Origin: Pseudomonadota bacterium
Lineage (GTDB): Bacteria > Pseudomonadota > Gammaproteobacteria > Burkholderiales > Burkholderiaceae_C
Direction: 5' to 3'
Assembly (NCBI GenBank): GCA_021846965.1
Contig: JAJZWA010000012.1
Coordinates: forward strand, 1-64,000
Length of the DNA: 64,000 nt
A model generated the notes under the pieces. That model saw only the letters and a list, made by a program, of their open reading frames with translations. It did not search any database and was not told where the DNA came from. The translations under genes were made by a program, and so were the position numbers. This document shows, piece by piece, positions 28,806-40,734 of the stretch (position 1 is its first letter; the number at the start of each line of letters is the position of its first letter).

Positions 28806-28903
28806 GCGGGCATTGTGCCTGCGCGCGCGGCGCCGCGTGCGCACGCGCACGCGGGAGGCCGCGCATGGCAGGCTCGTCGCAGCTGACGCACAATCGCGGA
28901 CAC

Positions 28904-28921
28904 GCCCGACCCGGGTCGGGC
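28904..28921. promoter_or_regulatory. 18-bp perfect palindrome before the membrane protein-rcoM operon
   Basis: GCCCGACCCGGGTCGGGC is a perfect 18-bp palindrome ending 16 bp before the start of the membrane-protein gene. It could be an operator or a 5'-UTR hairpin controlling expression of the CO-sensing pair. No matching site was seen before coxM. Confidence 0.5.
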
Positions 28922-28937
28922 ATGCGAGGTCTCGCGC

Positions 28938-29519
28938 ATGGGGTCGTGGATGCCGTCGTGGTTCGCCTATCTGCTGGTCGCCGCCGCAGGCATGCTGGTG
29001 CACCTGAGGCTGCACCGCGTGCTGCCCGCCCAGCTGCGTCCGGCCGCCGGCACGATGACGGCGGCGATGCTGGGCATGCTCGCGGGGCTGGCCATCGACG
29101 CCTCGCGCGGCCGGCTCGTCCTGCTGGCCTCCCTGTGCGGCGCCGGCCTGCCGCTGGGATCCCTGCTGCGCTGGCACCTCGGCCTGCTGGCTCCCAGCAA
29201 CGCGGCGCTCGCGCTGGCCGGCCTGCTGCCGGTGCTGTGGCAGCTGCGGGCCGGCCCCGCCGCCGGCCCGCGCGCGGGCCTGCTGCCCTCGCTGCTGTGC
29301 GTGGGCCTGATGCTGCTCGGCATGAACCTGGGCATGCCCCTGCTGGTGCATGCGCGCGCGTCCGCCGGCGCTTCGCCCGGCGCGGCCACGATGCTGGCGG
29401 CGATGCAGGCCGGCATGGCCTGGGGCTCGGTGGCCGCGCTGCTCCTGCTGCGCGCGGTCGCGCGGGCCCCGGCAAGCCTCACGATCCTCCCCCGCGGCGA
29501 AACGGAGACCACACCATGA
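28938..29519 (+). CDS. Six-helix membrane protein of unknown function, overlaps rcoM
   Basis: A 193-residue very hydrophobic protein. About six transmembrane stretches are visible (for example WFAYLLVAAAGMLVHLRL, MTAAMLGMLAGLAI, LVLLASLCGAGLPLGSLL, LLPSLLCVGLMLLGMNLGM and a final AMQAGMAWGSVAALLLL). Methionines are unusually frequent within the helices. There is no recognisable domain. Its stop overlaps the rcoM start by four bases (ATGA), so the two are translationally coupled. That makes it a candidate partner in CO sensing or transport. Some Oligotropha Cox proteins (CoxC, CoxH) join membrane segments to a LytTR domain; here the two parts would be separate proteins. Function unknown. Confidence 0.8.
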   Translation: MGSWMPSWFAYLLVAAAGMLVHLRLHRVLPAQLRPAAGTMTAAMLGMLAGLAIDASRGRLVLLASLCGAGLPLGSLLRWHLGLLAPSNAALALAGLLPVLWQLRAGPAAGPRAGLLPSLLCVGLMLLGMNLGMPLLVHARASAGASPGAATMLAAMQAGMAWGSVAALLLLRAVARAPASLTILPRGETETTP

Positions 29520-30295
29520 CCACCCCGCAGGGCCCCGCGTCGGCGCTGTACCTGTTCGAGAAGTTCGAGGTCGGCGTGGTGCACCTGGACGCCCAGCGCA
29601 AGGTGCTCGCGATGAACGACTTCGCGCGCCGCATCCTGCCGGTGAGCGACAAGCGTCCCTTCGACGCGCTGGTGACCTCCTTCCATCCGCCGCGCTCGGC
29701 CGCCAAGGTCAGCTTCCTGCTCGACCAGGCCTCGGCCTGCCCGGTGGCCGCGGCCATGCCGATGACCATGATCATCAACATCCCGGAACAGGTGCTTCTG
29801 ATCAAGGTCACGCGGCTGGCCGGCGAGGACGGGCAGACCACGGGTTTCGCCCTGGTGTTCTACGACGTGACCCAGCTCGTGGTCCAGGGCGAGGCGCCGG
29901 TGGCACCCGCGGCGGCACCGGTCGCCGGGGCGCAGGCCGGCGAGAAGCGCCAGCTCGCGCGCATCCCGCTGGTGGCCAATCACCGTGTCACCTTCGTGGA
30001 CACCGCGCAGGTGGTGTTCCTGGAGTCCCAGGCGCACTACACGAGGGTGCTGACGACCAGCGGCTTCCAGTTCTGCAACCTGAGCATCGGCGACCTCGAG
30101 GCGCGCCTGGACCCCCAGCGCTTCGTGCGCGTGCATCGCTGCTTCATCGTCAACCTCGACGCCGTGCTCGAGCTCGGACGGGTGGACGGCAAGGTGCAGT
30201 TGCGCATGCGCGGCGATCCGCCGACCTGGGTGCCGGTGTCTCGCGCCGAGGTCGCGCGCCTGCGCTCGCTGCTGGGGGTGCAGCGCAAGGCCTAG
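29516..30295 (+). CDS. rcoM: CO-sensing haem regulator RcoM (PAS-LytTR)
   Basis: A 259-residue regulator. An N-terminal PAS domain (about residues 8-125) is joined by an Ala/Pro-rich linker to a C-terminal LytTR DNA-binding domain (about 150-257; QAHYTRVLTTSGFQFCNLSI, RVHRCFIVNL). In RcoM from Burkholderia xenovorans the haem ligands are His74, and Cys94 or Met104. The corresponding positions here are His57 (FHPPRS), Cys75 (ACPV) and Met85 (MIINIP), with the Cys-to-Met spacing of ten conserved. RcoM binds CO at haem and activates aerobic CO oxidation genes. It lies 200 bp upstream of coxM with LytTR-style repeats between. Residue matching is from memory of the family. Confidence 0.88.
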   Translation: MTTPQGPASALYLFEKFEVGVVHLDAQRKVLAMNDFARRILPVSDKRPFDALVTSFHPPRSAAKVSFLLDQASACPVAAAMPMTMIINIPEQVLLIKVTRLAGEDGQTTGFALVFYDVTQLVVQGEAPVAPAAAPVAGAQAGEKRQLARIPLVANHRVTFVDTAQVVFLESQAHYTRVLTTSGFQFCNLSIGDLEARLDPQRFVRVHRCFIVNLDAVLELGRVDGKVQLRMRGDPPTWVPVSRAEVARLRSLLGVQRKA

Positions 30296-30376
30296 CAGGC
30301 CGCGAGCGGTTTGATAGGGACTTTCCCGGATTGTCGAAGCGACTTCGGCGCCTTCCGGCGCCTGATGGCTTTGTGT

Positions 30377-30409
30377 GTGCATTTCGTGAGCATCCTGGTG
30401 CATTTGGTG
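30377..30409 (+). promoter_or_regulatory. Tandem direct repeats, probable RcoM binding site
   Basis: GTGCATTTCGTG (30377-30388) and GTGCATTTGGTG (30398-30409) differ at one base and start 21 bp apart, two helical turns, as is usual for LytTR regulators. Three more GTGC tetramers follow at 30417, 30424 and 30436. The site is about 50-80 bp upstream of a TATAGT -10-like hexamer (30459-30464) that lacks a good -35, consistent with activator-dependent transcription of coxMSL. Confidence 0.65.
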
Positions 30410-30463
30410 TAAAAATGTGCCAAGTGCTTGATAAAGTGCAAAAAAATTGGTGAATCCGTATAG

Positions 30464-30482
30464 TTTGTCTGTCCTAGACAAA
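30464..30482 (+). promoter_or_regulatory. Inverted repeat at coxM start region
   Basis: TTTGTCT-gtcct-AGACAAA has perfect 7-bp arms. It lies directly after the -10-like TATAGT (30459-30464) and ends 13 bp before the coxM ATG, so it spans the likely transcription start. It could be a repressor operator or a 5'-UTR hairpin close to the ribosome-binding site. Confidence 0.5.
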
Positions 30483-30495
30483 TTCGGAGACACCC

Positions 30496-31359
30496 ATGAT
30501 TCCACCGCGTTTCGAGTACCACGCGCCGCGCTCCGTGGACGAGGCGATCGCGTTGCTCAGCAGCCTGGGAGGCGACGCGAAACTGCTGGCCGGCGGCCAC
30601 AGCCTGCTGCCGATGATGAAGCTGCGCTTCGCGCAACCCGGCACGCTGATCGACCTCAACCGCATCGAGGAACTGCGCGGCATCCGCGAGCAGGGCGACA
30701 CCGTGGTGATCGGCGCGATGACGGTGGAGAACGACCTGATCGCCTCGCCCGTGCTGCGCAGCAAGGTGCCGCTGCTGCCGGAGGCGGCGGCGCTGATCGC
30801 CGACCCGCAGGTGCGCAACCGCGGAACCATCGGCGGCGACATCGCCCACGGCGATCCGGGCAACGACCATCCGGCGCTGTCCATCGCGCTGGACGCGAGT
30901 TTCGTGCTGCAGGGCCCGAAGGGCCGGCGCAGCGTCGCCGCCGACGGCTTTTTCCTCGGCACCTACATGACCCTGCTGCAGGAGGACGAGGTGCTGTGCG
31001 AGATCCACGTGCCGGCCTTCAGGCCCGGCACCGGCTGGGCCTACGAGAAGCTCAAGCGCAAGACCGGAGACTGGGCCACCGCCGGATGCGCGGTGGTGCT
31101 GCGCCGCGCCGGCGAGCGCATCGAGCACGTGCGCATCGCGCTGACCAACGTGGGGCCGATGGCGCTGCGCGCCACCGATGCCGAGGCTCTGCTGCAGGGG
31201 CGCGCGCTCGACGCGCAGTCGCTTGCGGCCGCCGCGGATGCCGCCGCCGCGATCTGCGATCCGGCCGAGGATCTGCGCGGTGACGTGGAATACAAGACGG
31301 CCATGGCCGCGCAGATGGTCAAGCGCGCGCTCAGCAAGGCCTGGTCGCGTTGTCAGTGA
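30496..31359 (+). CDS. coxM: CO dehydrogenase medium subunit CoxM (FAD)
   Basis: A 287-residue FAD-binding subunit of the molybdenum hydroxylase family. It has the two FAD-contact motifs [13 protein letters not shown] (about residues 32-44) and [17 protein letters not shown] (about 111-127). It passes electrons from the [2Fe-2S] clusters of CoxS to the acceptor. The start follows a CGGAGA ribosome-binding site. It is the first gene of the structural coxMSL operon under RcoM-like control. Its order M-S-L with a form I CoxL identifies a true aerobic CO dehydrogenase. Confidence 0.95.
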
Positions 31360-31375
31360 AACAGCAGGAGCTCCC

Positions 31376-31867
<492 letters not shown>

Positions 31868-31894
31868 GGCCCACCCCACACGGAGACCACACTC

Positions 31895-34306
<2,412 letters not shown>

Positions 34307-34310
34307 GTCC

Positions 34311-34341
34311 TCCGGGGGCCGGCGGCGCGCCGGCCCCCGGA
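34311..34341. terminator. Strong perfect hairpin between coxL and coxG
   Basis: TCCGGGGGCCGGCG-gcg-CGCCGGCCCCCGGA is a 14-bp perfect GC-rich stem with a 3-base loop, starting five bases after the coxL stop. No U-tract follows, so full intrinsic termination is uncertain. Partial termination or 3'-end stabilisation of a coxMSL transcript is likely and would make accessory genes less abundant than structural ones. Confidence 0.6.
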
Positions 34342-34369
34342 TCCCTGCCCAAACCCTTGAACCTGCACC

Positions 34370-35017
34370 ATGGAAGTCAAACTTGAAAAAACCTATGAGC
34401 TCGACGTCGACGCCGCATCGGCGTGGGCCCTGCTCAGCGACCTGCGCCAGGTCGCCGGCTGCATGCCCGGGGCCGAGATCACCGAGCAGATCGACGCGAA
34501 CTCCTACAAGGGAGCGGTGAAGGTCAAGGTCGGCCCCGCGCTGGCGCAGTTCGGCGGCACCGTCGACGTACTCGAGTGCGAGCCCCAGGCGCGGCGCATG
34601 GTGATGCGCGGCAAGGGGGCCGACAAGAGCGGGTCCTCCGCGTCGATGGACCTGAACGCGGTGATCGAGCCGGCCGCCGACGGCGCCGCGCGTTCCATGC
34701 TGCACGGCCAGGCCACGGTGGTGGTCAACGGCAAGTTCGCGCAGTTCGGCGGGCGCATGATGACCCAGGTCTCGGAAATGATGCTGGGGCAGTTCGTCGA
34801 CAACTTCCGTGTCGCCGCGCGAGAGCTCGCCGCGCAGCAGGCCGTGGTCCCGGCAGGTTCCGCCGCCGCCCCGGAGTCCGCCGGAGCGGCCGTCCAGGCG
34901 CCGGCGGCCCCCGCCGCGGCGCCGCGCCAGGCCGCGCGCGAGATCAACGGTCTGGCCCTGTTGTGGGCCCTGATCAAGGGCTGGTTCGGCGGGCTGTTCG
35001 TGCGGCGCGTGCAATGA
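34370..35017 (+). CDS. coxG: CO dehydrogenase accessory protein CoxG
   Basis: A 215-residue SRPBCC-fold protein (residues 1-150; starts MEVKLEKTYELDVDAASAWA) with a Pro/Ala linker and a C-terminal hydrophobic/amphipathic segment (LALLWALIKGWFGGLFVRR) that would anchor to the membrane. In carboxydotrophs CoxG recruits CO dehydrogenase to the inner membrane and is thought to mediate electron transfer to quinone. The stop overlaps coxD by four bases, indicating the start of the accessory operon. Confidence 0.9.
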   Translation: MEVKLEKTYELDVDAASAWALLSDLRQVAGCMPGAEITEQIDANSYKGAVKVKVGPALAQFGGTVDVLECEPQARRMVMRGKGADKSGSSASMDLNAVIEPAADGAARSMLHGQATVVVNGKFAQFGGRMMTQVSEMMLGQFVDNFRVAARELAAQQAVVPAGSAAAPESAGAAVQAPAAPAAAPRQAAREINGLALLWALIKGWFGGLFVRRVQ

Positions 35018-35937
35018 ACCCGCTGGCGCCCGCGACGATGGCGGCGCCACGCGCGCTGCGCCAGGCCCTGCACGAGGCGGGCTATGTCGCCGACGAGTCG
35101 CTGGCCACCGCATGCTGGCTGGCGCGCGAGTTGCAGCGCCCGCTGCTGCTGGAGGGCGACGCGGGGGTGGGCAAGACCGCGCTGGCCGCCGCGCTGGCGC
35201 GGGTGCACGACGCCGAGCTGGTACGCCTGCAGTGCTTCGAGGGCCTGGACCTGTCGCAGGCGGCCTACGAGTGGAACTACGGGCGCCAGCTGATGGCCAT
35301 CCGCCTGCACGAGGCCGGGGGCCAGGGCCTGCGCGAGCAGGATCTGTTCGGGCGCGAGTACCTGCTCGAAAGGCCATTGCTGCGCGCCATCAGCAGCGCG
35401 CGCCCCTGCGTGCTGCTGATCGACGAGATCGACCGCGCCGACGAGGCCTTCGAGGCCTTCCTGCTGGAGGTGCTGGCCGAATACCAGATCACCGTGCCGG
35501 AAATCGGCACGCTGCGAGCCAGCACCATCCCGCTGGTCGTGCTGACCAGCAACGGCACGCGCGAGCTGTCCGACGCGCTTCGTCGGCGCTGCCTCTACCA
35601 CTACCTCGACTATCCCGAGCTGGCGCGCGAGATCGCCATCGTGCGCCTGTCGCTGCCCCAGGTGGAGTCGCGCCTGGTCGAGCAGGCGGTGGCCTTCGTG
35701 CAGGGTCTGCGGCGCGAGGACCTGGCCAAGACCCCGGGAGTCGCCGAGACCCTGGACTGGGTGCGCGCGCTGCACGGCCTGGGCCAGCGCGAGCTTCCCG
35801 CGCAGGTCGAGCTGCTGCTGGCCACCCTGGGCTGCCTGCTCAAGACCCAGGAGGATCGTTTCGCGGTGCAGGCAGAGCGTGTCCTGCGACTCCTCGAGCA
35901 GCGCAGCGACGCGGGCGTCGCGGCGGGCATGCGCTGA
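35014..35937 (+). CDS. coxD: MoxR-type AAA+ ATPase CoxD
   Basis: A 307-residue MoxR-family AAA+ protein with Walker A EGDAGVGKT (about 47-55), Walker B LLIDEIDRAD and a sensor-1 segment VLTSNGTREL. In Oligotropha CoxD participates with the VWA protein CoxE in inserting sulfur and copper into the Mo-Cu site of CoxL. It begins inside the coxG stop (ATGA). It is followed by coxE after 19 bp, the standard D-E order. Confidence 0.93.
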   Translation: MNPLAPATMAAPRALRQALHEAGYVADESLATACWLARELQRPLLLEGDAGVGKTALAAALARVHDAELVRLQCFEGLDLSQAAYEWNYGRQLMAIRLHEAGGQGLREQDLFGREYLLERPLLRAISSARPCVLLIDEIDRADEAFEAFLLEVLAEYQITVPEIGTLRASTIPLVVLTSNGTRELSDALRRRCLYHYLDYPELAREIAIVRLSLPQVESRLVEQAVAFVQGLRREDLAKTPGVAETLDWVRALHGLGQRELPAQVELLLATLGCLLKTQEDRFAVQAERVLRLLEQRSDAGVAAGMR

Positions 35938-35956
35938 CGCGGCGCAGGAGACCGGG

Positions 35957-37138
35957 ATGCCTTCCGTCGCGGCTGTCTCCCCCCTGCAGCGCATGGGCGA
36001 ATTCGCCGCGCTGCTGCGCGATCACGGCTTTTGCGTGGGCGTCGACGAGCAGCGCTGCATGCTGCGGGTGGCGCAGCAGCTGGGCCCCGGCGAGCCTTCC
36101 GCGGTGGAATTCGCGTGGCGGGCCATCGCCTGCAGCGACCAGCAGGACTGGCGGCGCTGGCACGAGATCTTCGAGCGTTTCTGGTGGCCGCAGCGCGTGC
36201 GCGGCCAGGTTCGCGTGAGCCAGCAGACCCGGCGCTCGCGCGACCTGCGCCAGGCCGTGCAGGACCTGCACCAGCGCCTCGATGCCGACTCCGCCGGGCC
36301 CCAGGCCGCCCGCACGAGCGATGCGCGGGGCAGCGCCGACCAGGCCTTGGCCGAGGATTCCCAGGGGCCCGGGCGCGAGCGCGCACAGGGAGGCGCCAGC
36401 CGCACCGAGGCGCTGCACGCGCGCGAGCACCAGATGTGGCTGCCCCAGGAGCTCGCCGCCTTGCAGCGCCTGGCCGCCGACATCGCGCAGCGCCTGCGCC
36501 CGCGGCCGACGCGCCGCTGGCGGGCGGCGCCGGCGCGGGCGCAGTCGAGGCTGGACCTGCGCGCGACCCTGCGCCGCAGCGTGGCCTGGGGCGGCGAGCC
36601 GCTGCAGGCGGCCTGGCGCGTGCGGCGTGTCGAGCCTGCGCGACTGTTCATCCTCGCCGACGTGAGCCGCTCGATGGAGGCGCACGGCGCGTTTTTCCTG
36701 CGCGTGGCACGCGCCTTCGCCCAGCAGTGCGACGCGCGGGTGTTCGTGTTCCACGTGCGCCTGGCCGAGGTCACCGCGCTGTTGCGCCGCGACAGCGCCG
36801 CCACACAGGAGCAGGTCAACGCCGTCACCGCCGGGTTCGGCGCCGGCACGCGCATCGGAGCGTGCATGCAGGCCTTCGCGCGTGGCGCGGCGCGCCACCA
36901 GCTGGTGCGCGGTTCGCGCGTGTGGGTGTTCTCCGACGGATTCGACACCGACACCCCGGAGCTGCTTGGCGACGCGCTGCGTGCGCTTCGCGGGCGCGGC
37001 GCGCGCATCAGCTGGTTCCACCCCACGCGGTCGGTTCCGCAGGCCGCCGCCTTGCAGCGCGCGCGCGCCTGCATCGACACCTTCGTACCCCTTGCCTCGA
37101 TCGCCGACCTGGCGGCCGCGCGCAAATCGCTGCACTGA
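35957..37138 (+). CDS. coxE: VWA-domain maturation factor CoxE
   Basis: A 393-residue protein with a C-terminal von Willebrand A domain. The MIDAS motif DVSRS (235-239), followed by a metal-binding Thr region and FSDGFDTD, is intact. Such VWA proteins pair with MoxR AAA+ ATPases; in the CO dehydrogenase system CoxE acts with CoxD in Cu/S maturation of CoxL. The N-terminal half is Arg-rich and variable. It starts after AGGAG at 35946-35950. Confidence 0.9.
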   Translation: MPSVAAVSPLQRMGEFAALLRDHGFCVGVDEQRCMLRVAQQLGPGEPSAVEFAWRAIACSDQQDWRRWHEIFERFWWPQRVRGQVRVSQQTRRSRDLRQAVQDLHQRLDADSAGPQAARTSDARGSADQALAEDSQGPGRERAQGGASRTEALHAREHQMWLPQELAALQRLAADIAQRLRPRPTRRWRAAPARAQSRLDLRATLRRSVAWGGEPLQAAWRVRRVEPARLFILADVSRSMEAHGAFFLRVARAFAQQCDARVFVFHVRLAEVTALLRRDSAATQEQVNAVTAGFGAGTRIGACMQAFARGAARHQLVRGSRVWVFSDGFDTDTPELLGDALRALRGRGARISWFHPTRSVPQAAALQRARACIDTFVPLASIADLAAARKSLH

Positions 37139-37151
37139 CAGGAGACCCCCC

Positions 37152-38297
37152 ATGTCCACCTTCGATTGGATCACCCAGGCAGCGCGACTGCGCGAGCAGG
37201 GCCGCGCCTTCGCCCTGGTCAGCGTGTTGCGCGTGCAGGCGCCGGCCTCGGCGCGCCCCGGAGACAAGGCGCTGGTGCTGGCCGACGGCACCATCCATGG
37301 CTGGATCGGCGGCGGCTGCGCCCAGCCGGCGGTGCTGCGCACCGTGCGCCAGGCCCTGCAGGACGGACGTGCGCGCAGCGTGCGCATCACGCCGGCGGCG
37401 CAGGGCAGCGAGCGCGACCTGGGGGACGTGCTCGAGTTCGGCATGGCCTGCCACTCCGGCGGAACCCTCGAACTCTTCGTCGACCCGGTGCTGGCCGACC
37501 CGCTGCTGGTGGTGATCGGCAACACGCCGGTGGCGCGCTCCCTGGTGTCGCTGGCGCCGCAACTGGGGCTGCGCGTGGCCTGGGCCGGAGTCGGCCTGCA
37601 AGAGCAGGAGGTCGAGGGGGTGCAATGCCTCGCCGGCGACGACCCGCAGCTGCTGCGCCGGGAACTCGGCGAGGGCGGCTTCGTGGTCGTGGCCACGCAG
37701 GGCCAGCGCGACCTGCAGGGCTTGCGCGCCGCGCTGGCGCTGCAAGCCGCCGGGGTCTGGTTCGTCGCCAGCGCCCGCAAGGCCGCGGTGTTGCGCCAGA
37801 GCCTGATCGCCTCGGGCGCCGATGCGCACGCCGTGCAGTCCATCGTGGCCCCCGCGGGCACCCCGATCAGCGCCCACACGCCGCCGGAAATCGCCTTGTC
37901 GGTGCTGGCAGCCGTGGTCGCCGCGCGCCGGTGCGGCGCGCCGGCGGCGCGGGCCGTGCCCGCGCCGGAGTCGCTGGAGTCGGACGCAGGCACGGCGCAG
38001 GGCCTGTCCCCGGAGCCGCAGGCGGCTTCCTGCTGCGGCCACGGCGCGAGCTCGCCCGAGCCCGCGATGCCGGAGTCCGCAACGTGCTGCGGCCACGGCG
38101 CGACCTCGCCCGAGTCCGCGGTGCCGGAGTCCGCGGTGCCGGAGTCCGCAACGTGCTGCGGCCACGGCGCAAGCTCGGCCGAACCCCCGCGGCCCGAGGC
38201 GGCCTCGTGCTGCGCCGCTCGCGAGCCGGAGCCCGCCGCGGTGGCGGGCAGGCCCGCGGAGCATGCGGCCGAAACCCATTCCTGCTGCGGGCACTGA
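37152..38297 (+). CDS. coxF: XdhC-family CO dehydrogenase accessory CoxF with Cys-Cys-Gly-His tail
   Basis: A 381-residue XdhC/CoxF-family protein. Residues 1-265 carry the family blocks (IHGWIGGGCAQP, a Rossmann-like VVIGNTPVARSL, TPPEIALSVLAAV). The remainder is an unusual low-complexity tail with five Cys-Cys pairs at residues 294, 312, 335, 353 and 378, four of them as CCGH and three as CCGHGA(S/T)S. Spacing is 18, 23 and 18 residues for the first four, and the protein ends in SCCGH. XdhC proteins bind and deliver sulfurated molybdenum cofactor. The tail looks like a soft-metal ligand array; copper is an attractive guess because the enzyme needs Mo-Cu. Confidence 0.85.
   Translation: MSTFDWITQAARLREQGRAFALVSVLRVQAPASARPGDKALVLADGTIHGWIGGGCAQPAVLRTVRQALQDGRARSVRITPAAQGSERDLGDVLEFGMACHSGGTLELFVDPVLADPLLVVIGNTPVARSLVSLAPQLGLRVAWAGVGLQEQEVEGVQCLAGDDPQLLRRELGEGGFVVVATQGQRDLQGLRAALALQAAGVWFVASARKAAVLRQSLIASGADAHAVQSIVAPAGTPISAHTPPEIALSVLAAVVAARRCGAPAARAVPAPESLESDAGTAQGLSPEPQAASCCGHGASSPEPAMPESATCCGHGATSPESAVPESAVPESATCCGHGASSAEPPRPEAASCCAAREPEPAAVAGRPAEHAAETHSCCGH
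38031..38213 (+). repeat. Tandem coding repeat in coxF tail
   Basis: Imperfect repeats of about 54 or 69 bp, each starting TGCTGCGGCCACGGCGC and followed by a Ser/Pro/Glu-coding spacer. Copies begin at 38031, 38085 and 38154, with a degenerate one at 38208. The middle unit contains a further internal duplication of GTGCCGGAGTCCGCG, suggesting replication slippage. The period is a multiple of three, so the frame is kept. Confidence 0.88.
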
Positions 38298-38302
38298 GCG
38301 CC

Positions 38303-38989
38303 ATGGGATGCATCCTGAAGGGCGGCGGCGGCCTGTACAGCCGGCTGCGCGTCGGGGCCGTGCTGCTGGCGGCGGGGGAGGGCTCGCGCCTCGGCGGGCG
38401 TCCCAAATGCCTGCTCGAACTCGGAGGCGTGCCGCTGGTGCGACGGCAATTGATCGCCCTGTCCGGAGGTGGGGTGGACGAGCTGGTGGTCGTGCTCGGG
38501 CACCATGCGCAGCGCATTGAGCCGGTCGTGGCGGAGTTTCCCGTCACGCTGGTTCGCAATCCGCATCCCGAGCAGGGACAGGCCTCCTCGACCCGGGTCG
38601 GTCTGCAGGCGCTGCCGGCGGTGGACTGCGTGCTGGTCGCGCTGGCGGATCAGCCCCTGCTGCATGCGCAGGACGTGGCCGACCTGATCAAGGCGTACAA
38701 GCAGCGCCCCGAGGGCATCGAACTGGTGCAACCGCAGGTCGACGGACAGCCCGGCAACCCCCTGGTGCTCAGCGCGGCGGTGCGCGAGCAGATCCTCGCC
38801 GGCCCCGGGGACGTGGCCTGCCGCCGCTGGCAGGAACGCCATGCGGCGCAGGTGCTGCGCTGGTCGACCGCCAACCGGCGCTATGCGGTGGACATCGACA
38901 CCGAACAGGACATCGAGGCGCTTGCACAGCGCACCGGCCACCGGCTTCGCTGGCCGCAGGACCTGGCCTCGGCCGCGGTGCAGCCATGA
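38303..38989 (+). CDS. MobA-like molybdenum cofactor cytidylyltransferase
   Basis: A 228-residue NTP-transferase (MobA/MocA family) with the nucleotide-binding LLAAGEGSRLGGRPKCLLELGG near residues 20-41 and the acidic LADQP metal-binding motif. In molybdenum hydroxylases the cofactor is molybdopterin cytosine dinucleotide, and this enzyme would attach CMP from CTP. The ATG at 38303 is five bases after coxF, and its stop overlaps the next gene by four bases. The cytidyl rather than guanylyl preference is inferred from the CO dehydrogenase context. Confidence 0.88.
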   Translation: MGCILKGGGGLYSRLRVGAVLLAAGEGSRLGGRPKCLLELGGVPLVRRQLIALSGGGVDELVVVLGHHAQRIEPVVAEFPVTLVRNPHPEQGQASSTRVGLQALPAVDCVLVALADQPLLHAQDVADLIKAYKQRPEGIELVQPQVDGQPGNPLVLSAAVREQILAGPGDVACRRWQERHAAQVLRWSTANRRYAVDIDTEQDIEALAQRTGHRLRWPQDLASAAVQP

Positions 38990-39693
38990 GCGGCTCCGGC
39001 GCCGACGCGGTCGCGCAGGGCCAGCTGGCGCTGTGGCCGACCCCCATGGGCGTGCACCGCTGGGCGCAGGCCGCTGAGGTCAATCCGCTGCTGGCGCGGG
39101 TGCTCGGCAGCCTGCGGGCGATGGCGCAGCCAGGGCCCGCGGGGTTCTTCGCCAGCGAGGACGACCTGCTGGAGCGCATCCGCCTGCCCGAGTGGAAGGA
39201 TTTCCTGCGTTTCGTCGTCGATTCCCTGCACGCCACGGTGGCGCAGGCCAACCGCGGCGCCTGGCCGCATCCCGCGCCGGGCCTGCAGGTGCACCTGCGG
39301 GGCATGTGGTTCCAGGTCGCCAACCAGGGCGCCAGCCACGACGTGCACACCCACGGCAACTGTTCGTGGTCCGGCGTGTACTGCGTGCAGGTCGACGACG
39401 AGCCCCGGCGCGTGGCCGACCCCGTGCTGGGCTCGCGCAACGGGGTGACCCGGTTCTACGGCCCGTATTTCCCGCGGCTCGGCGGCGCCCATGCCGACCT
39501 CGGCAACGCGTACCTGCAATCGGCGCACCTGGACATCGCGCCGCTGCCGGGGCAGTTGATTGTGTTTCCGTCGTGGCTCGCGCACCAGGCGATGGCGTAC
39601 CGCGGCGAGCGCGATCGCATCATCGTGTCCTTCAATGCCAGCGTGCATGCGGCGCAGGGCGGCGATCGCCTGCGCGGCTATGCCGCGGCCTGA
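38986..39693 (+). CDS. Putative 2OG-Fe(II) oxygenase (TIGR02466-like) in cox operon
   Basis: A 235-residue protein with features of the TIGR02466 putative 2OG-Fe(II) oxygenases. An early histidine cluster SHDVHTHGNCSW (His118, Asp119, His121, His123) and a late WLAHQAM (His200) could give the Fe(II) facial triad. RDRIIVSFN supplies an Arg plus Ser for 2-oxoglutarate. The start overlaps the cytidylyltransferase stop (ATGA), and coxI follows 39 bp later, so it is embedded in the CO dehydrogenase operon. No role for such an enzyme in CO oxidation is known to me. Function unknown. Confidence 0.72.
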   Translation: MSGSGADAVAQGQLALWPTPMGVHRWAQAAEVNPLLARVLGSLRAMAQPGPAGFFASEDDLLERIRLPEWKDFLRFVVDSLHATVAQANRGAWPHPAPGLQVHLRGMWFQVANQGASHDVHTHGNCSWSGVYCVQVDDEPRRVADPVLGSRNGVTRFYGPYFPRLGGAHADLGNAYLQSAHLDIAPLPGQLIVFPSWLAHQAMAYRGERDRIIVSFNASVHAAQGGDRLRGYAAA

Positions 39694-39732: not shown

Positions 39733-40734
39733 ATGAACAGCATCGACATCGAAGTCATCCGCAACGCGCTGGACTGGCTGGAGCGCGGCCATCGCGTCGT
39801 GCTCGGCACGGTGGTCCGCACCTGGGGCTCGGCGCCGCGACCTCCCGGCTCCATGATGATCATCCGCGACGACGGCCAGGTCGCCGGTTCGGTCTCCGGA
39901 GGCTGCATCGAGGACGACCTGATCCGGCGCGTGGCCGCTGGAGAACTCGCGCTGCACCGTCCCGAGGCCACCGTCTATGGCCGCAGCGCCGAGGAGGTCC
40001 GTCGCTTCGGGCTGCCCTGCGGGGGCAGCGTGCAGGTGGTGCTCGAGCCCCTGAGCGAGGCCTCCGGGCTGGAAGCGCTGCTGCGCCACATCGAATCCTC
40101 GCAGCGCGTGCAGCGCAGCCTGGACATGGCCAGCGGCGCGGTGCGCCTGTCTCCCGCCGAGCGCCGCGAGGCCGTGTACTACGACGACCAGGTGCTACGC
40201 ACCGTGCACGGCCCGCGCCTGCGCCTTCTGCTCATCGGCGGCGGGCAGTTGTCGCGCTACCTGGCCTCGATGGCGGTCATGCTCGATTACCGGGTCACCG
40301 TGTGCGAGCCGCGCGTCGAATACCACGAGGGCTGGGAGGCCGTGCCGGGGGTGAGCCTGTCCACCCGCATGCCCGATGACGAGGTGCTGGCCATGCAACC
40401 CGACGACAGTACCGCCGTGGTGGCGCTGACCCACGACCCCAAGCTCGACGACCTGGCGCTGATGGAGGCCTTGCGCAGCCCCGCCTTCTACGTCGGCGCG
40501 CTGGGGTCGCGGCACAACAACGACAGGCGTCGCGAGCGCCTGCTGGAGTTCGACGTCACGCCGGAGCAGGCGGCGCGGCTGCGCGGTCCGGTGGGACTGC
40601 GCCTGGGCGGGCTGACGCCGCCGGAGATTGCCATGAGCATCGTCGCCGAGATGACCGCCGTGCAACGCGGCGCCGATCTGGCGCAGCCCCTGACGGACTG
40701 GAGCGCGTCCAGTACGGTGTGCCGGGTGGCATGA
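39733..40734 (+). CDS. coxI: XdhC-family maturation protein CoxI
   Basis: A 333-residue XdhC/CoxI-family protein. The N-terminal block GTVVRTWGSAPRPPGSMMII with GSVSGGCIEDDL is the XdhC domain. The Rossmann domain (LLLIGGGQLSRYLASM) and the YVGALGSRHNNDRRRERL segment form the second half. Members insert or sulfurate molybdenum cofactor. This is the second XdhC homologue in the cluster (CoxF is the first); each has its usual partner role in Oligotropha-type clusters. A TTG at 39724 is a possible alternative start. Confidence 0.9.
   Translation: MNSIDIEVIRNALDWLERGHRVVLGTVVRTWGSAPRPPGSMMIIRDDGQVAGSVSGGCIEDDLIRRVAAGELALHRPEATVYGRSAEEVRRFGLPCGGSVQVVLEPLSEASGLEALLRHIESSQRVQRSLDMASGAVRLSPAERREAVYYDDQVLRTVHGPRLRLLLIGGGQLSRYLASMAVMLDYRVTVCEPRVEYHEGWEAVPGVSLSTRMPDDEVLAMQPDDSTAVVALTHDPKLDDLALMEALRSPAFYVGALGSRHNNDRRRERLLEFDVTPEQAARLRGPVGLRLGGLTPPEIAMSIVAEMTAVQRGADLAQPLTDWSASSTVCRVA

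Follow-up and report, generated by a model that had tools for sequence, protein, structure and literature searches.

A cysteine-pair tail on CoxF as a candidate Cu(I)-delivery arm for the Mo-Cu site of form I CO dehydrogenase

How does copper reach the Mo-S-Cu site of form I CO dehydrogenase, and could a cysteine-rich extension of the maturation factor CoxF be part of the answer? The question is raised by coxF in the window, the whole 64,000-nucleotide stretch of DNA analysed here, whose product continues past its XdhC domains into a tail of Cys-Cys (CC) pairs. The accessible text of PMC4240915 describes coxE and coxF mutants of Oligotropha (Afipia) carboxidovorans OM5 in which both proteins are missing; their CO dehydrogenase is folded and contains Mo, FAD and near-normal total sulfane sulfur, but no Cu. 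The enzyme of the coxF mutant F::km contained 0.043 Cu against 1.47 in the wild type and 1.40 sulfane S against 1.53; by EPR, 76-79% of its Mo was [MoO3], 18% was in the persulfide form and 3-6% was [MoO2S], and Cu alone restored 14% of its activity (PMC4240915). As both mutants lack both proteins, the copper defect is not CoxF's alone, and as the EPR signal is mostly [MoO3] and Cu alone restores so little activity, the coxF mutation is not a clean copper-only defect. The same source names CoxF as the copper donor through the motif M107CPSHGTM, invokes a suspected phytase activity, includes in its model a reduction of CoxF-bound Cu2+, and describes an active site that is buried by about 17 A and open to thiols larger than CO (PMC4240915).

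The coxF gene of the window and the architecture of its protein

We found that coxF lies in a cluster with the order coxM, coxS, coxL, coxG, coxD, coxE, coxF, a MocA-like nucleotidyltransferase gene, a 2OG-Fe(II) oxygenase-like gene and a second XdhC gene, with the following coordinates.

30496..31359, + strand: coxM, FAD subunit
31376..31867, + strand: coxS, [2Fe-2S] subunit, ATG at 31376
31895..34306, + strand: coxL of form I, AYRCSFR active-site signature read in the translation (TIGR02416, 1568.7 bits against a cut-off of 991.15)
34370..35017, + strand: coxG
35014..35937, + strand: coxD, MoxR-type AAA+ ATPase, ATG at 35014
35957..37138, + strand: coxE, VWA protein (PF05762), provisional start at 35957, the first ATG of a frame open from GTG 35879
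37152..38297, + strand: coxF-type gene, XdhC-family maturation factor with a Cys-Cys tail (translation, Pfam, CoxF-type by profile comparison)
38303..38989, + strand: MobA/MocA-like nucleotidyltransferase
38986..39693, + strand: putative 2OG-Fe(II) oxygenase, TIGR02466
39733..40734, + strand: second XdhC-family protein, a CoxI-like partner without a CC tail, ATG at 39733

The gene follows coxL, coxD and coxE, and with a coxL identified by both profile and signature it is the CoxF of a form I cox cluster. Of two profiles, one of CoxF and one of other XdhC proteins, the CoxF profile also gives the protein the higher score, which is a weak test because the window protein was itself a seed of the CoxF profile. 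Upstream of coxM, a domain search identified a PAS and LytTR protein (open frame 28865-30295, ATG at 29516), which we take to be the architecture of the CO regulator and sensor RcoM. A TIGR02466 gene similar to that of the window is also found directly before coxF in the cox cluster of Deinococcus AJ005 (locus L269, 5773-6444). A second form I cox cluster (G000:C20, locus L041) is present in the assembly, with 87% DNA identity over 8.5 kb (window 29063-37522) and on a contig that ends inside coxF; either the genome has both clusters or the assembly combines two strains.

Examining the protein, we observe a single open frame of 381 residues plus a stop codon that divides into a folded core and a tail.

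37152..37937, + strand: folded XdhC core, residues 1-262, with XdhC_CoxI and XdhC_C domains (Pfam, invariant columns, pLDDT, Foldseek)
37938..38294, + strand: disordered Ala/Pro/Ser/Glu-rich tail, residues 263-381, with five CC pairs (translation, pLDDT)
38031..38042, + strand: first CCGH, residues 294-297 (translation)
38085..38096, + strand: second CCGH, residues 312-315 (translation)
38154..38165, + strand: third CCGH, residues 335-338 (translation)
38208..38219, + strand: CCAA, the variant fourth pair, residues 353-356 (translation)
38283..38294, + strand: terminal CCGH, residues 378-381 (translation), with S-C-C-G-x being the commonest end among relatives

The core matches PF02625 (XdhC_CoxI) at residues 14-78 and PF13478 (XdhC_C) at residues 119-254, with 69 and 70 bits against Pfam cut-offs of 24.3 and 29.7, and all six Foldseek matches at E <= 0.001 are chains of the XdhC-type structures 2we7, 2we8 and 3on5. 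In an AlphaFold2 model built with 25 sequences, the core has a pLDDT of 82-97 per ten-residue block, with exceptions of 66 and 59 at residues 81-100, and from residue 261 onwards the values fall to 39-49, so that the tail is predicted to be a disordered arm. Cys56 and Cys100 are invariant in an alignment of 56 CoxF proteins, and the cysteine of the OM5 motif M107CPSHGTM aligns with Cys100, which could thus be a core site common to CoxF.

The preliminary description had placed five Cys-Cys pairs, four of them CCGH, beyond the XdhC domains and ending exactly at the C-terminus, and both points hold: no Pfam domain was found past residue 254, all ten cysteines of the 119-residue tail lie within five CC pairs, and the last CCGH is the C-terminus. 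The pairs start at residues 294, 312, 335, 353 and 378, so that the regular 18-23-18 spacing given earlier is correct for the first three intervals and had omitted the fourth, of 25 residues. Five or more CC pairs arose in 1 of 200,000 shufflings of the tail residues. The DNA of the tail is partly repetitive, with a 54-bp unit in 1.9 copies at 94% match and a 69-nt family in four copies, and for this reason the CC copy number of the window gene is not, taken alone, evidence of selection; that evidence comes from relatives, in which the motif recurs while the linkers differ. The tandem repeats of 54 bp and 15 bp lie at window 37963-38149, and their copy number may differ between strains. Selenocysteine was also considered, as one or two TGA codons fell within the matches of several congeners, and was rejected because these matches ran on beyond the proteins' own stop codons.

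Distribution of the tail among CoxF and other XdhC proteins

Next, we sorted the XdhC proteins of the fetched loci by the two profiles into CoxF-type and other proteins, counting duplicates by core sequence once. The counts leave out three cut CoxF, three cut XdhC and the core-sequence duplicates, and they include five plasmid CoxF. Ten plasmid records were hand-picked from listings, some of them because the match extended into the tail. Among 115 CoxF-type proteins (3 cut), the 112 complete ones comprise 74 that end in a CC unit, 4 with an internal unit, 9 with a YHS domain and 25 with neither. The tail is thus not a peculiarity of one strain, with CC units in 78 of the 112. The ends of these 78 tails are SCCGG in 44, SCCGH in 12, SCCGS in 5 (61 that end exactly in SCCG followed by G, H or S), other sequences in 13 and internal in 4, and the final residue of the 74 that close on a CC unit is G in 46, H in 16, S in 6, M in 3, N in 2 and V in 1. 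Across the 78 tails, whose linkers differ, 308 of 317 cysteines lie within CC pairs and Ser precedes 129 of the 154 pairs. The number of pairs per tail is one in 22 proteins, two in 38, three in 17 and five in a single one, the window protein. The 25 proteins without CC or YHS consist of 17 from an alphaproteobacterial clade, 5 from a betaproteobacterial clade, 1 from Nonomuraea and 2 outliers. L255 and the second protein of locus L261 branch outside all other CoxF in the tree, and may not be CoxF.

The CC tail was found on none of the 148 complete other XdhC proteins, 35 of which lie in loci with a form I coxL and 90 of which were drawn from XdhC_C survey loci of 150 genomes of the order. The expectation that the tail would be confined to CoxF and absent from ordinary XdhC proteins is therefore upheld among the proteins compared. 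A cysteine within the last six residues is present in 79 of the 148 other XdhC, and a lone Cys within a few residues of the C-terminus is common, for instance in the product of window 39733-40734. The loci contain 9,547 distinct mechanically called open reading frames 100 or more residues long; CCG followed by zero to two residues closes 73 of them, namely 70 CoxF, one CoxF fragment and two that are seemingly spurious. Searching at the DNA level for an S-C-C-G-x-stop pattern gave matches in 12 of 20 genomes, with 25 sites against 17 for a reversed control pattern, and we set the pattern aside as uninformative by itself.

Upon surveying the window's genus from coxL, we observed that 18 of 28 genomes exceed the TIGR02416 cut-off and that the same 18, including the window's genome, hold a close CoxF (E under 1e-30). 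Fifteen of these congeners have CC tails (two of them, G003 and G020, on fragments), two (G011 and G022) have none, and in G024 the tail is lost at a contig end. The CoxF of G022 ends in SGCGS, one Cys short of SCCGS, in a genome whose coxL keeps AYRCSFR, and the coxL of G011 is likewise over the cut-off. At the level of the order, where two candidates per genome were scored as also for the phylum, 7 of 399 genomes exceed the cut-off and 6 of the 7 hold a CoxF with CC units or YHS: CC tails in G000 and G280, YHS in G290, G058 and G183, and in G083 a YHS CoxF whose contig is not that of coxL. The coxL of G083 is close to a contig end, and a second protein, tail-less but sorted as CoxF-type, stands beside it. 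In the remaining genome, G358, we found no CoxF-type XdhC. Its contig C29 (loci L036, L070 and L071) carries a coxL with AYRCSFR, coxG, and a coxE that adjoins a MocA-like gene with no coxF between them, which represents either a decayed cluster or copper loading without CoxF. The phylum survey placed 18 of 398 genomes over the cut-off, 15 of them new; the contig of G437 was too short for coxF, and 13 of the other 14 lack a CC unit, with one ending in RFCCM. In the tree these new proteins group with those of Afipia, Bradyrhizobium, Rhizobium and Roseivivax, that is, with Alphaproteobacteria.

Furthermore, an alignment scan for CoxF across 84,980 species genomes gave at least 525 confirmed relatives, and we examined the best 80 of these by likeness to the window protein, which belong to Comamonadaceae, other Burkholderiales and a few others. 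The 66 newly counted proteins among these 80 comprise 58 that end in a CC unit, 4 with an internal unit, 3 without and 1 that is cut, a frequency that is not a prevalence because the sample was picked by likeness to the window protein. Most tails in the best 80 end in S-C-C-G-x behind an Ala/Pro-rich linker, and the CC unit is found in Limnohabitans, Hydrogenophaga, Variovorax and Rubrivivax.

A YHS domain in the same place and the CoxF tree

In 9 of the 112 CoxF (from Burkholderiales, Thermomicrobium, Deinococcus and one haloarchaeon), a C-terminal YHS domain (PF04945) stands in the place of the CC arm. It is above the Pfam cut-off in eight, from Thermomicrobium roseum, Natronorubrum bangense, Paraburkholderia, Caballeronia and four genomes of the order, and just below it in the ninth, Deinococcus AJ005 (L269), with 29.1 against 30.3 bits and its Cys missing. 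The Natronorubrum CoxF has both SCCGGG and YHS. A form I coxL lies on the same contig for eight of the nine, within a few kb for seven and at about 10 kb in G183; in G083 it lies on another contig. Searching the YHS profile against 31,962 mechanically called open reading frames of the loci returned only CoxF fusions (10 rows, 9 distinct proteins), and no standalone YHS gene that could replace the tail in trans was found in the fetched loci with a tail-less CoxF; the window CoxF and the open reading frames of the window gave no YHS match either. In the Natronorubrum cox cluster, a DUF364 gene (L155, 9505-10425) separates the VWA gene from the second XdhC gene; DUF364 is a putative heavy-metal chelation domain.

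A YHS-bearing cyclase of M. phlei is activated by Cu2+ but not by any of the six other ions tried, and copper ATPases contain YHS domains, although Cu binding in those ATPases themselves had not been shown, as set out in the accessible text of PMC4626032, which attributes no known metal role to the YHS of toluene hydroxylase. YHS domains also occur in toluene/phenol hydroxylases, for which no copper role is known. The presence of YHS at the same C-terminal place backs a soft-metal, probably copper, role for the tail.

In a quick tree of 73 rows with long branches, the betaproteobacterial CoxF come together in a single clade (SH-aLRT 99), in which 32 proteins have CC tails and 5 do not (L012, L013, L117, L138 and L145; two are in the window's genus, G022 and G011). 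An alphaproteobacterial clade (SH-aLRT 95) lacks CC in 17 of its 18 rows, and the YHS proteins together with the tail-less Nonomuraea protein (L270, by which alone the actinobacterial CoxF are represented) form deeper branches. At least seven changes among CC, YHS and none are needed on this tree. YHS may be the older state, with the long branches making its depth unsure.

The link to form I cox clusters that had been proposed for the tail is thus borne out in one direction, as among the XdhC compared CC tails occur only on CoxF, and needs correcting in the other, as 17 of 18 alphaproteobacterial CoxF, that of OM5 included, and two of the 18 cox-bearing congeners lack CC units. The OM5 CoxF shares with the window protein the XdhC core and the place after coxL, coxD and coxE, and differs in having 280 residues, no CC units and a proposed Cu motif inside the core. 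The tail cannot therefore be the universal copper donor of form I enzymes; by this sequence comparison, the CC arm is best described as accessory.

Candidate roles of the tail

On balance we lean towards the CoxF tail being a flexible Cu(I)-binding delivery arm that completes the Mo-S-Cu site, with YHS taking this part elsewhere and neither module present in most alphaproteobacteria. CoxF would be needed to finish the site of form I CO dehydrogenase, and in the window's genus and most of the betaproteobacterial relatives seen, a disordered C-terminal arm would bind Cu(I) by Cys-Cys-Gly-(Gly/His) units. Copper would be held or gathered on the inner CC units; the terminal S-C-C-G-x would exchange thiols with the client, folded apo-CO dehydrogenase, and so transfer the metal to its sulfurated Mo and active-site Cys. 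In other lineages the C-terminal YHS domain would do the job of the arm, and most alphaproteobacteria would use neither. We infer the binding of Cu(I) by the arm, the direction of its transfer, the handover and the route through the channel. Since thiols larger than CO have access to the buried site, a bare C-terminal S-C-C-G-x could in principle enter. The fewest assumptions are needed if CoxF proteins share a core Cu site and many lineages have, in addition, a C-terminal copper module, either the CC arm or YHS, that improves loading or passes the metal on.

Several known systems resemble parts of this arrangement. The C-terminal cysteines of mercuric reductase (MerA) give a soft metal, Hg(II), to active-site cysteines (accessible text of PMC4500099). 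There is no homology with the window CoxF, for which Pfam returned only XdhC domains and Foldseek only XdhC-type structures. MerA has a pyridine-nucleotide disulfide oxidoreductase fold and a single C-terminal Cys pair, not an array. The His/Cys tails of the SlyD type provide an example of a metal-binding tail on a folding or maturation factor, with a core that differs from that of CoxF and with nickel as the metal. Cox17 has its copper site on vicinal cysteines, CCXC (accessible text of PMC5877523); it is a twin CX9C mitochondrial protein, and no related Pfam domain is found in the window CoxF.

The same tail could instead serve sulfur chemistry, the terminal SCCGG being a swinging arm that takes persulfide sulfur to Mo, in the manner for which the C-terminal GGCGG arm of SoxY is a model. 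The position of the unit at the very C-terminus and the predominance of the SCCGG end fit such an arm, and vicinal CC also suits persulfide or dithiol chemistry. XdhC proteins are said to aid sulfuration or to shield sulfurated Moco, and the authors of PMC4240915 suggest that CoxF also protects sulfurated Mo, to which they tie the high [MoO3] share in the OM5 coxF mutant enzyme; against this, the total sulfane sulfur of the mutant is near the wild type and its Cu is gone (PMC4240915). The variable last residue and the occupation of the same place by YHS in other CoxF also count against a sulfur relay, as does the absence of the CC tail from all 148 other XdhC. Cu-free enzymes of CO dehydrogenase's family also need Mo-bound sulfur. 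Taken together, we regard a sulfur relay, the second role named in the preliminary description, as unlikely, though the EPR result speaks in its favour. A related candidate, a MoaD-like thiocarboxylate at the Gly-Gly end of the SCCGG tails, was rejected because the last tail residue varies.

We also consider it improbable that the tail is a redox device, its CC dithiol serving to reduce either the active-site Cys of apo-CO dehydrogenase or Cu(II), the latter to Cu(I). Some thioredoxin reductases carry C-terminal SCCS or GCCG tails, which S-C-C-G resembles, and the C-terminal half of the CoxF core is a Rossmann domain by Pfam. The reduction of CoxF-bound Cu2+ in the published OM5 model would call for a step of this kind. 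However, more than one unit is present in 56 of the 78 tails and CCGH is common, which fits metal better, no flavin domain was found in the window CoxF by Pfam, and YHS takes the tail's place elsewhere.

That the tail is a metallothionein-like sponge suited to metal-rich habitats, and plays no role in assembling CO dehydrogenase, is very unlikely: several congeners are metagenome-assembled genomes from sample sets that, as far as habitat can be inferred, may be mine waters, but Limnohabitans, Hydrogenophaga, Variovorax and Rubrivivax carry the same CC unit, and both the XdhC comparison and the open reading frames ending in CCG confine the tail almost wholly to CoxF. We give hardly any credence to the array having arisen incidentally, through slippage of the DNA in a GC-rich repeat, since the 54-bp and 15-bp repeats in the tail DNA would have to account for cysteines that stay paired across proteins with differing linkers, for ends that are mostly SCCG-x and for a CC tail kept across the betaproteobacterial clade.

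Returning to the Cu(I) delivery arm, a fuller form of this reading, which we put forward only tentatively, is that form I CoxF is a fusion metallochaperone, with an XdhC core that handles Moco and a copper module in two forms, YHS and the CCG(G/H) arm, the arm reaching into the substrate channel to set Cu(I) between the Mo sulfur and the active-site Cys. Among open-licence PMC papers, we did not find a CC arm or a YHS fusion on CoxF or XdhC in print. CoxF as a proposed copper donor is known, and what appears to be new is its C-terminal soft-metal module in two forms. If true, the fusion metallochaperone would be the first identified copper-loading part for a Mo-Cu enzyme, and the copper module may have been lost in the alphaproteobacteria, where the pathway was studied. 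A removable, lineage-specific, copper-type arm together with its exchange for YHS gives a direct test of how copper enters the Mo-Cu enzyme, for which tractable laboratory hosts may exist among the Hydrogenophaga and Variovorax relatives that have the arm. Finally, such a test would bear on which parts to keep when cox genes are moved between hosts.
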